A stretch of 64,000 nucleotides of DNA from Calothrix sp. FI2-JRJ7 (GTDB lineage Bacteria; Cyanobacteriota; Cyanobacteriia; Cyanobacteriales; Nostocaceae), in NCBI GenBank assembly GCA_019359675.1, contig JAHHGX010000070.1, positions 62,001 through 126,000 of the forward strand, in the 5' to 3' direction. Every line of letters begins with the position of its first letter. The first letter of the stretch is position 1. Both the position numbers and the translations under genes were made by a program. Positions 1-4,723 of this stretch are shown here, piece after piece. The notes below the pieces were generated by a model. That model did not search any database. It saw only the letters and a program-made list of their open reading frames with translations, and was not told where the DNA came from.

Positions 1-1121
1 TGTGCCAAATATTTAGAAATGTTATTAGACCCCATTAAAGACATTTCTTTGTTACTCTTCCATACATAATCGAGTTTTTCTAGGTAAAGTTTATAAGATT
101 CCATTGCTTCGGTATGTGTGTTGTAGCTACGATGTAGTCCTTCGCTTTCTTCTGTAAAACAGCGTCGCATCATTTCTTTTGCTTCGGCGCCGCTCATATT
201 AAAGACTGGTGAACACAACAAAAGGTATACTGCCTTATATAAAGCGGGGTCATACCAGAAAATACCGTTGATAACACAAGAAAAGTGATAATGGTCTTTT
301 TGACAACCTTGTAAACCTAGGTTTGCTACTAATTTTTCAAATTCTGTTGGTGGTTTGAGACAATGAATCACGTCATGGGAGATTATTGTCGAACTGTTAA
401 AGTGAAAACTCTCGTCCATGAAGTGATAGTAAGATATTTTGGCTGGTATAGGCGCCTGTTCTTGGTGGGGATGTTTTTGGTAATAGTTACTTAGCTTGTG
501 CTGTACGAGTTTACCGTTGAGTGTTCTAACTCCCCGCACGGTAAAATACTGACAAGCCAAAAAGGTGTTATCTGCTGAAAGTAACCCAAAAGCTTTTAAT
601 TGTAGTTCTTTCCATTTGCGCTTGAAGTAGTTGGTGTCGGCAAAAACCATTGTTTCGGCAAACGGACTACGCATAGGATAGCTAAATATACGTTTGCCAA
701 ATAATGCGGACTCAACTTCGTTCGCTACCGTTTTGAAAGCATTTATATGGGCGCGTTCTTGACTCGATTCTAAATCAAGGGTGTCACAAACTATGCGAAA
801 ATCTTCTTGGGCGTAAAGTCCTGCTGCACTAGTTTGGTTAAAATAAATGGTAGCAATTTCTGCGGAGATGATTTGCGAGTAATATGCTACCCAGTAAAGT
901 TGATTTAAAATAATGCGTTGGCTAGGAGTCGCTTGTTCCCATAGGGGAGTGCCATACATTAAGGAAAATTCTTCAGGGTTCCAGTATTCATTTTTACAGT
1001 TTTCGTAATTGAAAGCAGCAGATGCAGCATCGAGTAGTGCGGTGTGGTCTTGCTGTTTGTTACGTTTGTGGTTTATTTCTAGTCTACGGTTGACTTGTTG
1101 ATTTTCTGTAATTGTATTCAT
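1..1121 (-). CDS. AurF-like diiron N-oxygenase (partial)
   Basis: The frame is open from an ATG at 1121 down to base 3 (373 codons) and runs off the left edge, so the C-terminus is missing. Three metal-ligand groups match the p-aminobenzoate N-oxygenase (AurF) pattern: E88, E122-x2-H125, and H233/E237/H240, where the spacing H-x3-E-x2-H is that of AurF H223/E227/H230. E88 to E122 is 34 residues (35 in AurF). Such enzymes oxidise amines to hydroxylamine or nitro groups with O2 at a diiron centre, in the cytoplasm. The fourth carboxylate ligand expected between about 175 and 220 is not obvious. It is the last visible gene of a four-gene minus-strand operon, 10 bases after the ferritin-like gene, with a Rieske oxygenase upstream. 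Substrate unknown. Fold assignment is fairly good; the N-oxygenase activity is inferred. Confidence 0.7.
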   Translation of the reverse strand, partial: MNTITENQQVNRRLEINHKRNKQQDHTALLDAASAAFNYENCKNEYWNPEEFSLMYGTPLWEQATPSQRIILNQLYWVAYYSQIISAEIATIYFNQTSAAGLYAQEDFRIVCDTLDLESSQERAHINAFKTVANEVESALFGKRIFSYPMRSPFAETMVFADTNYFKRKWKELQLKAFGLLSADNTFLACQYFTVRGVRTLNGKLVQHKLSNYYQKHPHQEQAPIPAKISYYHFMDESFHFNSSTIISHDVIHCLKPPTEFEKLVANLGLQGCQKDHYHFSCVINGIFWYDPALYKAVYLLLCSPVFNMSGAEAKEMMRRCFTEESEGLHRSYNTHTEAMESYKLYLEKLDYVWKSNKEMSLMGSNNISKYLA

Positions 1122-1131
1122 AATCTTTTAT

Positions 1132-2043
1132 TTATAAGCTCGCACACTGTTCTACTGAAAAAGGTGTAAAAGCGTTTTGTTCGTCTAGTTCTTGGACTAT
1201 TGAGACAGTTTGCGGGTTTGTCATTAACCCGCGCAGTAAATTTAAACGACTGCTACTATGATATTCGGCGCCTAATTGTTGAAATACGGTTATTTTCTGC
1301 TGACGTGATAAACTGCCTTTGATTTGTTCGACTGCTGCGACAACTCCCTGTGGTCCGACTTGTACCATTTGTAGAAAGGATGCGAGTATTTCAATAATGA
1401 TTTTGCGACTTTGATGTTCTATCGAAACTTGTTCACATAACCTGACACCTGTTGCATGGTGACGACTTTCGTCTTCTAAAAAGCTTTTTAGTACTGCTTT
1501 AAGTTCTGTGGTTATACAGTTTTTTGCCAAGTTCCGATAATGCGTTAACCCCCATCCTTCGAGTATTACTTGCAGTACAAATATTAGTACAGCTTTGTCA
1601 GAAGTTTCTGCGACATCAGTGAGTAGGTGTAAGAAAGTGTTATTTGTAGAAACTAGTTCGGGGTTTGGTAGAAAAGAACTTATTTTAGCAAGGTGAGTTA
1701 CTTCATCTGCGCTAAATAATGCGTAAAGCATTCGTTCTTCAGTAGTTTCTGCCAGCATGACCATTTTTGACATGTAACCAATACCTGCTTTTTCGATGAA
1801 GTAAGCTTCTTCTAGTAGTGTTTGGTTACAAAGGTGCAAAATTTGGATTTGTTCTTCTAAAGTACTAGCTGTGAAAATATCGACTTTATCTAAATCAAAA
1901 TGTTCTGCGCTCCAGTAAATTGAGTCTGTAGTATAAACTTTTATTTTCCCCACTTTACGTTGAAGCGCAGAGTCTAATATTCGACGCAGTTTGTCTTCTT
2001 TAGAAACATGAGGAATATCAAAACCAGTAACTTTATAATTCAT
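1132..2043 (-). CDS. Ferritin-like diiron carboxylate protein
   Basis: A 303-residue soluble protein with a four-helix-bundle diiron ligand set: Glu79/84 in helix one, E114-x2-H117, E162, and E192-x2-H195. That is the classic E, ExxH, E, ExxH order of ferritin-like oxygenases and oxidases. The N-terminal 60 residues and the C-terminal 80 residues carry no motif I recognise. It starts at an ATG 10 bases downstream of the Rieske gene's stop and ends 10 bases before the AurF-like gene, so the three are very probably cotranscribed. Having two different diiron proteins and one Rieske enzyme side by side suggests successive oxidation steps on one small molecule. Substrate and product cannot be read from the sequence. 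Confidence 0.65.
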   Translation of the reverse strand: MNYKVTGFDIPHVSKEDKLRRILDSALQRKVGKIKVYTTDSIYWSAEHFDLDKVDIFTASTLEEQIQILHLCNQTLLEEAYFIEKAGIGYMSKMVMLAETTEERMLYALFSADEVTHLAKISSFLPNPELVSTNNTFLHLLTDVAETSDKAVLIFVLQVILEGWGLTHYRNLAKNCITTELKAVLKSFLEDESRHHATGVRLCEQVSIEHQSRKIIIEILASFLQMVQVGPQGVVAAVEQIKGSLSRQQKITVFQQLGAEYHSSSRLNLLRGLMTNPQTVSIVQELDEQNAFTPFSVEQCASL

Positions 2044-2053
2044 ATTTTTAATA

Positions 2054-3094
2054 TTAAATACTTTCTTCCCATGTTCTCCATGTCAGAGGTTTTTGTTTTT
2101 CTGCATGGTGGATAAATTGCATAATGGAGTTATCAGCTTTGGTTGGTGTTTTTAAATCAAATTTAATTGTTTGGAAGATTTTAGTATCACCTTTGGCAAA
2201 GTAATTTCCAACTGCATTAGTTAAAGCCAATACTATTCTATTAAAAATCCAGCCAAGTATTCCCACGCGCTTTTTAGTAATTAAAATTGTTTGCCCTTCA
2301 GTTTTTCCTCCTTCTAATAGTCGCAACGTAAACATAATATGGAAGTGTAATAAGTCGGGACCAACTGTAACTACACCTGTACTTCCATACCAGTAACACA
2401 TGTTGTATGTCACGGCGTTTTTATAAAAGGGACGAATTAATTTCAGGAATAATGAATTTTCTCCTCCTCGTGTAATATTACTAAAAGTGATAGCGTTTTT
2501 AATTTCGTTTTTTTCAAATACTATTTTTACAGGAAAGTTATGAACTGTGTTGAAATGGTGAGCATCTATAGCATTCACCATCACAACATTTGGGTGACAG
2601 TTCTTGATGAATCTTTTTGCTAAAGCACTATCACATTTTTCGTGTTCTAACTCAGGAACGAAAGGTAAGGGTAAGCGTTCAGGGGGCGCCGTTTTACCAG
2701 TCCATACCCAAATCATCCCGTACTTTTCTGCTGTTTGCCAAGTATTTATTTTGACGGGTAAAGCTTCACCTATACAAGGTACTTCTATACATGTCCCGTC
2801 TGCATCAAATTTCCAGTTGTGGAAAAAACAGCGCAGTGCGTTACCTTCTACTTTTCCTTCTGCTAAATGGGCGCCCATATGTGGACAATATGCATCAACA
2901 GCAGTAACTGAACTGTCTTGTCCTCGAAATATTGCTAAGTCTCTACCCATAAGAGTTACAGGTTTAACTTGACCTTTTTTAAGATGATGTGAAGGTAATG
3001 CCCAGTACCATCCTTCGATAAAATATTCTGGGTTATTAAATATTTTATTAAACATAAAATAAAACTGGTTTATATTCGAGAAATTAATTTTCAT
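2054..3094 (-). CDS. Rieske non-heme iron oxygenase
   Basis: An O2-dependent Rieske oxygenase, probably acting on an aromatic, amine or lipid-like substrate. Numbered from the ATG at 3094, the [2Fe-2S] ligands are C70-x-H72 and C89-x2-H92, and the mononuclear iron site is D177-x2-H180-x4-H185, the canonical D-x2-H-x4-H arrangement. The catalytic core therefore looks intact (about 346 residues). The frame extends upstream to 3196, but those 34 codons translate the GAAACC/GGTTTC repeat (KPGFLS twice), so I place the start at 3094; 3055 is also possible. Neither has a clear ribosome binding site. The gene sits between an unknown protein and two diiron proteins in one operon. A reductase partner is not visible in the window. 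Confidence 0.8.
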   Translation of the reverse strand: MKINFSNINQFYFMFNKIFNNPEYFIEGWYWALPSHHLKKGQVKPVTLMGRDLAIFRGQDSSVTAVDAYCPHMGAHLAEGKVEGNALRCFFHNWKFDADGTCIEVPCIGEALPVKINTWQTAEKYGMIWVWTGKTAPPERLPLPFVPELEHEKCDSALAKRFIKNCHPNVVMVNAIDAHHFNTVHNFPVKIVFEKNEIKNAITFSNITRGGENSLFLKLIRPFYKNAVTYNMCYWYGSTGVVTVGPDLLHFHIMFTLRLLEGGKTEGQTILITKKRVGILGWIFNRIVLALTNAVGNYFAKGDTKIFQTIKFDLKTPTKADNSIMQFIHHAEKQKPLTWRTWEESI

Positions 3095-3096
3095 TA

Positions 3097-3192
3097 TAAT
3101 CTTTGACAAGAAACCTAATAAAGATAAGAAACCAGGTTTCTGTTTGACAATTTTATTTTTTATTATAGTCTTTGATAAGAAACCTGGTTTCT
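3097..3192. repeat. GAAACC/GGTTTC palindromic repeat cluster
   Basis: Three copies of the genome's AAGAAACCTGGTTTCT-type palindrome lie here: a partial one at 3108-3117, AAGAAACCAGGTTTC at 3126-3140 and a full one at 3177-3192. A longer direct repeat, roughly TATAATCTTTGACAAGAAACC, starts near 3097 and again near 3163. The block occupies the junction of two operon genes. It encodes the last nine or so residues of the upstream gene and would encode an artificial N-terminus of the Rieske gene if the long frame were used. Confidence 0.8.
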
Positions 3193-3885
3193 CCAAACTC
3201 TTCTACCAGCTTTTGTTAAGTTTTCTTCACTAATTTCAGCTAAACAAACAAACTCATCACCTCGAATATAACCTGGGTTATGTTTGGCAAAGAATTCGAT
3301 ATGTGGGTCTTGTAGACGTTCTAATGGAATTTCTTTTAACTCGTCGCAAAGTATATGAGGATGTGGAAAACGGACTATTCCTGCTATATGTTTATAAGAC
3401 TCACCAAAGCGCTGATATCCTAAAAAGTGCATTAAGTCAGAGATATTTTCTGGTGTAGCTTTATCATATCGCGGATAAAACTCCTGCCAAAATATCGGTA
3501 GAAATCTATAGGTACGAAAACCACCTGAAATTAACAACCAGTATAATTTACCTTCTGGGTACTGGCGCCTAATTTTTTGAACTGAAGTTATCCAAGTGCG
3601 AGAAAGTGTAGAACTCGACCAAGCACTAGGGTCTACAATCGTATCTCCAGAATAAACTATATTAATATTTTCATTATTAAATTGCGTAGTGTATATTAAT
3701 AATGTCGAAAAACCTTTGAGTTGTTGAGTTTTCTCGTCTTCAAGCAAAATAACCCAGTTCTTGTTACTCAAATCTGATTCAAACACATCTCGCTTTACCC
3801 CATTAAAATGGTTGCCAAGCAACAAATACATGGCATCTTTTTGCTTATGTGATAAATATTCTATTTCTAATACTTGGCTTTTCAT
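3163..3885 (-). CDS. Conserved hypothetical protein, possibly GNAT-fold
   Basis: First gene of the oxygenase operon, 240 codons from an ATG at 3885. I do not recognise the family with certainty. The central part (SGDTIVDPSAW, then KLYWLLISGGFRTYRFLP) resembles an acyltransferase-like alpha/beta fold with exposed beta strands, and no signal peptide or membrane segment is seen. The last nine or so codons (after RRVW) lie in the AAGAAACCTGGTTTCT repeat, so the true ancestral C-terminus has probably been replaced by repeat-encoded residues. Its place at the head of an operon with three non-heme iron oxygenases suggests a role in the same pathway, perhaps transferring an acyl group or binding the substrate; this is inference only. 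Confidence 0.6.
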   Translation of the reverse strand: MKSQVLEIEYLSHKQKDAMYLLLGNHFNGVKRDVFESDLSNKNWVILLEDEKTQQLKGFSTLLIYTTQFNNENINIVYSGDTIVDPSAWSSSTLSRTWITSVQKIRRQYPEGKLYWLLISGGFRTYRFLPIFWQEFYPRYDKATPENISDLMHFLGYQRFGESYKHIAGIVRFPHPHILCDELKEIPLERLQDPHIEFFAKHNPGYIRGDEFVCLAEISEENLTKAGRRVWRNQVSYQRL

Positions 3886-3997: not shown

Positions 3998-4723
3998 ATG
4001 GCGCAACTACAACGTATTACTATTTCTCCGCACCAAATTAGAGATAATCAGGTTGTATTGGAAAAAGACCAGCTTCATTACCTAACCAGGGTTCTGCGGT
4101 TATCTGATGGTGATAAATTCATTGTCATGGATGGGGTAGGAAAATGGTGGTTAACAAAATTACAGTCCGAGTACGGTGAGATATTAGAAGCTTTAGAGGT
4201 ACAGACAGAGTTAAAAGTATCTATCAGCTTATTGTTAGCACTGCCGAAAGGTAACGCTTTTGATGATGTAGTACGTATTTGCACGGAATTGGGTGTTGAT
4301 ACTATTGTTCCGATAATAAGTGAGCGTACTCTTTTAAACCCTAGTTCGCAAAAACTTGAACGCTGGCGCCGAATAGCAGCAGAAGCAGCAGAGCAATCTG
4401 AACGTGCGTTTGTTCCAGTTATTTATGAGCCAGTTAGTTTTAGTCAGGGGTTGAATTTATTTGAAGCTGAACAAAAGTACATTTGTGAGGGGCGTGGTGA
4501 TAATCCACATTTATTAAAGTGTTGGCGCCAAGTTGGGGAAGGTCAGCTAAAGGTTGTTATTGCCATTGGACCAGAAGGTGGGTGGAGTCAGGAAGAGTTG
4601 GAAGGTGCTGTGAATGCTGGGTTTAAAATGGTTTCGCTAGGTAAAAGAATTTTACGTGCTGTAACGGCGCCTTTGGTTGTTTTGTCTATTTTGGCTGCTG
4701 AGATGGAAAACGAGTCGTATTAA
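3998..4723 (+). CDS. rsmE: 16S rRNA m3U1498 methyltransferase RsmE
   Basis: A 241-residue SPOUT-class methyltransferase. RsmE methylates N3 of U1498 in 16S rRNA using S-adenosylmethionine. The N-terminal PUA-like part (HYLTRVLRL) is followed by the knotted SPOUT domain with KGNAFDDVVRICTELGV, the SERT-like loop, EAAEQSER, and the C-terminal SAM knot IGPEGGWSQEE and LGKRILRAVTAPL. The ATG at 3998 is the natural start. It is transcribed divergently from the oxygenase operon; the 112-base spacer must hold both promoters. Length is normal for the family. Confidence 0.93.
   Translation: MAQLQRITISPHQIRDNQVVLEKDQLHYLTRVLRLSDGDKFIVMDGVGKWWLTKLQSEYGEILEALEVQTELKVSISLLLALPKGNAFDDVVRICTELGVDTIVPIISERTLLNPSSQKLERWRRIAAEAAEQSERAFVPVIYEPVSFSQGLNLFEAEQKYICEGRGDNPHLLKCWRQVGEGQLKVVIAIGPEGGWSQEELEGAVNAGFKMVSLGKRILRAVTAPLVVLSILAAEMENESY

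Follow-up and report, generated by a model that had tools for sequence, protein, structure and literature searches.

A ten-gene cyanobacterial operon with a GH3 ligase, a GNAT-fold protein and a CylC-family dimetal protein probably makes an oxidised fatty-acid amide

The window analysed here is a 64,000-nucleotide stretch (bases 62001-126000 of contig C70) of the 8.66 Mb genome of Calothrix sp. FI2-JRJ7. Its left edge cuts into an operon of ten consecutive minus-strand genes. In many cyanobacteria, and in some bacteria outside that group, such an operon probably builds a fatty-acid amide and oxidises it heavily, perhaps with chlorination. The gene products are, in operon order, a GNAT-fold protein, a Rieske oxygenase (Rieske 1), a ferritin-like protein, an AurF-like protein that is a homologue of CylC, a second Rieske protein (Rieske 2), a [2Fe-2S] ferredoxin, a third Rieske protein (Rieske 3), an FA_hydroxylase-type membrane protein, a hexapeptide protein and a GH3 ligase. 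These assignments were made with Pfam (GH3 N, M and C domains, FA_hydroxylase, Hexapep, Fer2 and Rieske), except that of the GNAT protein, which was made by predicted fold. The original prediction, which was made from the sequence of the window, had taken four head-to-tail genes to be an operon of a biosynthetic kind that combines three non-heme iron oxygenases and extends further left. The four are present as minus-strand open reading frames, of which the fourth runs off the edge of the window (Table 1). The reading as such an operon was borne out, and six further genes were found, ending in that of the GH3 ligase. Six of the ten (the three Rieske proteins, two soluble diiron proteins and one membrane diiron protein) are expected to be iron proteins that activate O2, and their presumed ligand residues are kept in at least 97% of aligned orthologues. 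With the exception of the CylC-like protein, we take the metal-ligand roles of these conserved residues from general knowledge of the families.

The operon fits a class of gene cluster that is already in print as an orphan, although the original prediction had known of no described pathway with this set of genes. Eusebio et al. (2021, PMC8406957) sorted the clusters of CylC homologues into seven types, the commonest of which ('Rieske-containing', 36 clusters) has no known product. The operon resembles these clusters in its number of Rieske proteins (two to four in the class, three here), in having a sterol-desaturase-family protein together with one CylC homologue, in its occurrence in Nostocales and Oscillatoriales with relatives outside the cyanobacteria, and in the lack of a carrier protein. 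No carrier protein was found by Pfam among the ten operon proteins, where open reading frames of 80 amino acids and above were listed and scanned, and the same paper states that substrate-activating and carrier proteins are absent near this clade. Our analysis differs in two respects. The term GH3 does not occur in the main text of that paper, whereas here the clade is constantly accompanied by a GH3 ligase, and the core appears to include the GNAT protein. A search of the open-access PMC literature, as distinct from subscription papers, found no characterised product of the class. The operon belongs to a described orphan class, and some facts on its core genes and active site are new: a substrate-activating GH3 ligase as partner, and a GH3-GNAT pair that looks like the core.

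The association was examined in 386 cyanobacterial-phylum genomes, of which 21 carry the present CylC clade, set apart by its bit scores (>600, against <300 for other CylC homologues). GH3 is present in 21/21 clade genomes compared with 31/365 others, a GNAT-like protein in 21/21 compared with 9/365, and the ferritin-like protein in 21/21 compared with 4/365. Fisher p values lie between 8e-21 and 5e-31 (at genus level 2e-10, 3e-15 and 8e-18), though the sampled genomes are related, so these values overstate independence. Five of the 21 (G131, G082, G122, G044 and G099) have a low-scoring GH3 gene that is distant or on another contig, so the link is not positional alone. Genomes that have only other CylC homologues contain GH3 in one case out of 12. 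Where the GNAT protein occurs without the clade, GH3 lies on the same contig within ~5 kb in eight of nine genomes, adjoining it or with a few genes between. For this reason the GH3-GNAT pair looks like the core of the system, with the oxygenases as tailoring enzymes.

The neighbours of the pair in these loci are varied. In L172, L175, L176 and L177 it adjoins members of one gene family, of which the copy in L176 was scanned and is a radical-SAM protein. Another conserved protein, of ~360-380 amino acids, is found beside these four pairs; it recurs in L171, and the copy scanned there has no Pfam match. L170 and L171 contain GH3, GNAT and a fatty-acid-desaturase-family protein, the L171 copy of which has a weak likeness to GntB, an arginine hydroxylase model of NCBIfam (52 bits, cut-off 380). 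A Rieske gene is near GH3-GNAT in one of the loci that lack the clade. For the ninth genome (G064), the 19 kb fetched (L178) hold GNAT, ferritin-like and hexapeptide genes only, and the genome gave no CylC-like or GH3 match at the thresholds used.

The genes are also conserved together around the CylC-like gene. A search of GTDB genomes with the CylC-like protein gave 130 relatives, and the best 80 were kept as loci; the closest named loci among these are from Calothrix and Dulcicalothrix. Presence was counted in the 51 of the 80 loci, 45 of them cyanobacterial and 6 from other groups, whose flanks extend for at least 8 kb in each direction. The cyanobacterial loci contain the ferritin-like, Rieske 1 and ferredoxin genes in 44 cases each, GNAT in 43, Rieske 3 and FA_hydroxylase in 40 each, Rieske 2 in 39, hexapeptide in 37 and GH3 in 34. 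Rieske 2 is present in three of the six other loci and every other gene in all six, and the complete set of ten is found in 28/45 and 3/6 respectively. Co-conservation of the genes first seen in the window was thus found, with Rieske 1 and the ferritin-like protein each in 44/45 and 6/6, so that the first condition named as refuting the original prediction, a lack of such conservation elsewhere, did not go against it. The pairwise distances of each gene correlate with those of the CylC-like gene with r of 0.89-0.97 (as high in 0/200 permutations), a correlation that arises partly from shared species descent. The six non-cyanobacterial loci are labelled Myxococcota, Elusimicrobia, Alpha- and Gammaproteobacteria, and Planctomycetota, Melainabacteria and Bacteriovorax come in with six shorter loci; 11 of the 12 carry a metagenome-assembled label, so that the organism names may be wrong. 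Among accessory families, named by their scanned members, an Mpo1-like protein (2-hydroxy fatty acid dioxygenase) is present in 24/80 loci and an amidohydrolase in 21/80.

The GH3 protein matches PF03321 with 79.2 bits (cut-off 23.6). S85-G86-S87, R337-Y338 and D342 are kept in at least 97% of 50 aligned rows, and we take these to be the nucleotide-binding motifs. The GNAT protein has no match in Pfam or NCBIfam at E up to 1. Its AlphaFold2 model (pLDDT 92.5) is closest by Foldseek to AAC(2')-Ia (E 1.2e-6, TM-score 0.40 by query length), with 199 matches at E ≤0.001 and query TM-scores of ~0.3-0.44 among the 50 matches listed. G58-F59-S60-T61 and S79-G80-D81-T82 are invariant over 30 aligned sequences. 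From the modelled fold, the first gene of the operon encodes a probable acyl-transfer enzyme. The FA_hydroxylase-type membrane protein belongs to the sterol-desaturase family (PF04116, E 8.1e-25) and has nine histidines at a frequency of at least 97% in 60 rows. Against NCBIfam it matches only one model at E up to 1e-5, that of OlsE, a hydroxylase of ornithine lipids (NF052566, 53.8 bits).

A published parallel is the OlsH-dependent synthesis of amino-lipids in planctomycetes (PMC12493201), where the GH3-type OlsH of one species makes N-acyl ornithine from free fatty acids. The likeness is at the level of family, i.e. a GH3-family ligase and a separate acyltransferase. There the ligase is paired with an alpha/beta hydrolase as acyltransferase, whereas here there are GNAT and hexapeptide proteins, and the available text of that paper describes no oxygenase set. 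Our best guess for the product is an oxidised acyl-amide lipid, based on the analogy with OlsH taken together with the GNAT protein, the hexapeptide acyltransferase and the OlsE-related FA_hydroxylase protein.

We infer a substrate and an order of steps on this basis. The GH3 ligase would use ATP to activate a free fatty (or similar) acid and couple it with an amino acid or, less probably, another amine, in the manner of OlsH, and the GNAT and hexapeptide proteins would attach acyl groups. The three Rieske proteins, the membrane FA_hydroxylase-type protein and the ferritin-like and CylC-type diiron proteins would then oxidise the chain or head group, with the ferredoxin as the likely electron donor. 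The CylC-type enzyme would act without a carrier, using a 3-His/3-Glu diiron site with glutamine in place of the extra Glu ligand of AurF, and would either chlorinate an unactivated C-H (as a permanent substituent or a cryptic leaving group) or perform a related radical oxidation. We put forward this ten-gene pathway, with a core of an amide-forming GH3 ligase and a GNAT-fold acyltransferase (together with the hexapeptide acyltransferase) and with decoration by six O2-activating iron proteins, tentatively and with slightly less than even confidence.

The CylC-like protein contains the motifs ExxQExxH and HxxDExxH in 80/80 loci. The six proposed metal ligands, three His and three Glu (E88, E122, H125, H233, E237 and H240), are kept in 91/91 members of the clade, made up of the Calothrix protein, the 80 loci and 10 sequences from the phylum searches. 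In these respects it resembles the CylC/NocO dimetal halogenases (PMC12101540). That family has nine active-site residues, alanine substitution of any of which abolishes chlorination by NocO (PMC12101540). Eight of the nine are kept in the clade. The ninth, corresponding to AurF E196 and NocO E252, is Gln207 in 91/91 clade members and Glu in 21/21 other CylC homologues (including one fragment that lacks the last motif). The split between Glu and Gln falls on a single branch with support of 100/100 in a tree of 55 rows. Equivalence with E252 is based on the ungapped stretch that precedes it and on the spacing to HxxDExxH; from the Glu to the Asp of that motif is 30 residues in AurF (196/226), in NocO (252/282) and, by eye, in the homologue in L018, and is 29 here. 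A small Gln-bearing subset is mentioned in the 2025 paper (PMC12101540), probably the present clade, for which the available text of that paper reports no activity. The contrast of Gln throughout the clade with Glu in the other CylC homologues is new here. A further difference from the CylC/NocO systems is that the ten genes include no acyl carrier protein or FAAL. Neither the protein nor its profile matched PDB sequences at E up to 1, and the Calothrix genome contains one CylC-homologue match. Nostochlorosides were considered as the product and rejected, since their cluster is a polyketide synthase cluster with a different, CylK-linked CylC (PMC10849952).

The active-site residues also bear on the chemistry proposed in the original prediction, i.e. 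AurF-type N-oxygenation leading to a nitro or hydroxylamine product, with a PrnD-like Rieske protein. AurF, the p-aminobenzoate N-oxygenase, shares the diiron ligand pattern and a distant sequence similarity with the CylC-like protein (PF11583, 19.3 bits), and the ferritin-like protein too is weakly AurF-like. The score is below the Pfam cut-off of 29.6, however, and the protein lies within the published CylC family. The DExxH of AurF reads QExxH in 91/91 clade members (D135 to Gln), and the E196 ligand is also replaced by Gln. These CylC-family halogenase motifs, with the two Gln substitutions, leave a nitro or N-oxygenated product unsupported. The reading is largely refuted on active-site residues, and we consider its probability to be very small.

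It is a closer question whether the CylC-like enzyme chlorinates. The motifs and metal ligands favour halogenation while the change of an essential residue counsels caution, and judged from the sequence the chances would be close to even. The pathway could be the same but with the glutamine making the enzyme a hydroxylase, desaturase or other diiron oxidase that uses no halide. The residue is Gln exactly where Glu is essential for chlorination by NocO (E252A is inactive; PMC12101540), and it is fixed in every clade member on that one fully supported branch. Yet no member has lost either the Gln of ExxQExxH, which is specific to halogenases, or any of the six proposed metal ligands, and a neutral residue at position 207 should leave the proposed halide site open. 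Weighing these, we rate an enzyme of the non-halogenating kind as not quite an even chance. A more specific extension of our pathway is that this is a clade of carrier-free diiron halogenases in which the fourth carboxylate of the AurF type has become Gln, so that the halide site would always be open, a diiron parallel to the exchange of carboxylate for halide in SyrB2. The substrate would be an acyl amide made by GH3, within a lipid pathway common to cyanobacteria, Myxococcota, Elusimicrobiota and Pseudomonadota, with the same GH3-GNAT core served by radical-SAM enzymes where the clade is absent. This we regard as unlikely in its entirety.

A number of observations weigh against the acyl-amide pathway as a whole. 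GH3 enzymes accept many acids, so the acid need not be fatty. The family is not specific to this system, because 23 of the 31 GH3 genomes outside the clade lack the GNAT protein. Within the fetched flanks, GH3 is missing from 11/45 cyanobacterial loci, hexapeptide from 8 and Rieske 2 from 6, and in L035 the CylC-like gene and that of Rieske 2 are the only ones left (the rest may be elsewhere). There is no ferredoxin reductase among the ten operon genes. The OlsE match is far under its cut-off of 475 and is thus at the level of the superfamily. Gln207 sits where E252A abolished chlorination by NocO (PMC12101540), so halogenation could be lost. Lastly, Rieske 1 resembles steroid oxygenases.

This last point raises the possibility of tailoring of a sterol or terpenoid type, in which the three Rieske proteins and the sterol-desaturase-family protein would act on a polycyclic lipid. 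Rieske 1 (Pfam Rieske domain, E 1.4e-23) has C104/H106/C123/H126 and D211/H214/H219 (numbered from the start at 3196) in at least 97% of 73 rows; we take these to be ligands, as is general for the family. Its best solved relatives are KshA (3-ketosteroid 9alpha-hydroxylase, E 1.7e-23) and SxtT/SxtDIOX, and for Rieske 1 and Rieske 3, the two that were searched, the best solved structures are the 3-ketosteroid hydroxylase, SxtT/SxtDIOX and NdmA. Both also match the NCBIfam sterol oxygenase SdmA, but weakly, with scores of 93 and 75 bits where the cut-off is 600. No cyclase was found among the five accessory families scanned (other neighbours lay outside the scan), and a GH3 ligase and acyltransferases would be superfluous to such tailoring, which we consider improbable.

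The ferritin-like protein matches Pfam Ferritin_2 with 21.4 bits, below the cut-off of 24.7, and its AlphaFold2 model (pLDDT 88.5) is helical. E79, E84, E114, H117, E162, E192 and H195, among them the residues of a possible E, ExxH, E, ExxH set of diiron ligands, are invariant in 32 aligned sequences and kept in at least 97% of 74 rows. Foldseek found no PDB fold at E 0.001 (the best, a ribonucleotide reductase beta subunit, has E 9.2e-3) and the family profile gave weak PDB matches, the best being a designed diiron protein at E 0.001; because of this the protein is left without a subfamily. A second ferritin-like gene in the same genome (L143:8675-9643, contig C81) is 46% identical and lies outside the cluster, among neighbours that look unrelated, and was left aside in the analysis. 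In place of E162 and E192 it has, by eye, D and K, and it may be a non-enzymatic paralogue.

The boundaries of the operon look clear, because plus-strand open reading frames flank it on either side (window 3998-4723; L009 8983-9954). The gaps of 10 bases originally predicted throughout are present at two of the three junctions, those of the ferritin-like gene with the AurF-like and Rieske 1 genes. The third, between GNAT and Rieske 1, is ~70-110 bases given the two likely ATG starts of Rieske 1, which were placed by homology to Rieske 2. The mechanical Rieske 1 reading frame overlaps the GNAT gene, but its TTG start at 3196 falls in a dispersed repeat and the overlap is false. This repeat is 81 bases long and extends over both the last part of the GNAT gene and the apparent Rieske 1 start. 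It is found in 12 places in the genome at E <1e-3, itself included, and in 112 at E up to 10. A similar palindrome is found where the Rieske 2 gene ends (L009 14958-14978). A scan for promoters and terminators gave a site count not above that of shuffled sequences. Accessory genes beside the cluster in L040, L042, L053, L072 and others belong, by scanned members, to Mpo1-like, amidohydrolase, SnoaL-like, GT2 glycosyltransferase and SDR families.

Table 1. Positions of the operon genes within the window and of associated features (window coordinates unless a locus is given).
Feature	Coordinates	Strand	Basis or remark
GNAT-fold protein, 240 amino acids, probable acyl-transfer enzyme, operon gene 1	3163..3885	-	open reading frame and predicted fold
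Rieske oxygenase 1	2054..3055 (or start 3094; mechanical open reading frame from 3196)	-	Pfam Rieske, homology
Ferritin-like diiron protein, 303 amino acids	1132..2043	-	weak Ferritin_2 match, conserved residues
CylC-family dimetal (putative halogenase) protein	1..1121, cut by window edge (open reading frame 3-1121)	-	motifs
CylC-like full-length gene, 385 amino acids	L009:15964-17121		
Dispersed palindromic repeat, AGAAACC-GGTTTCT type	3115..3195	none	GNAT/Rieske 1 junction; outside pathway

The change of Glu to Gln, which is natural and clade-wide at the presumed halide site, bears on the distinction between diiron oxygenases and halogenases. The GH3 and GNAT partners provide a concrete handle on what this widespread orphan pathway uses and makes.

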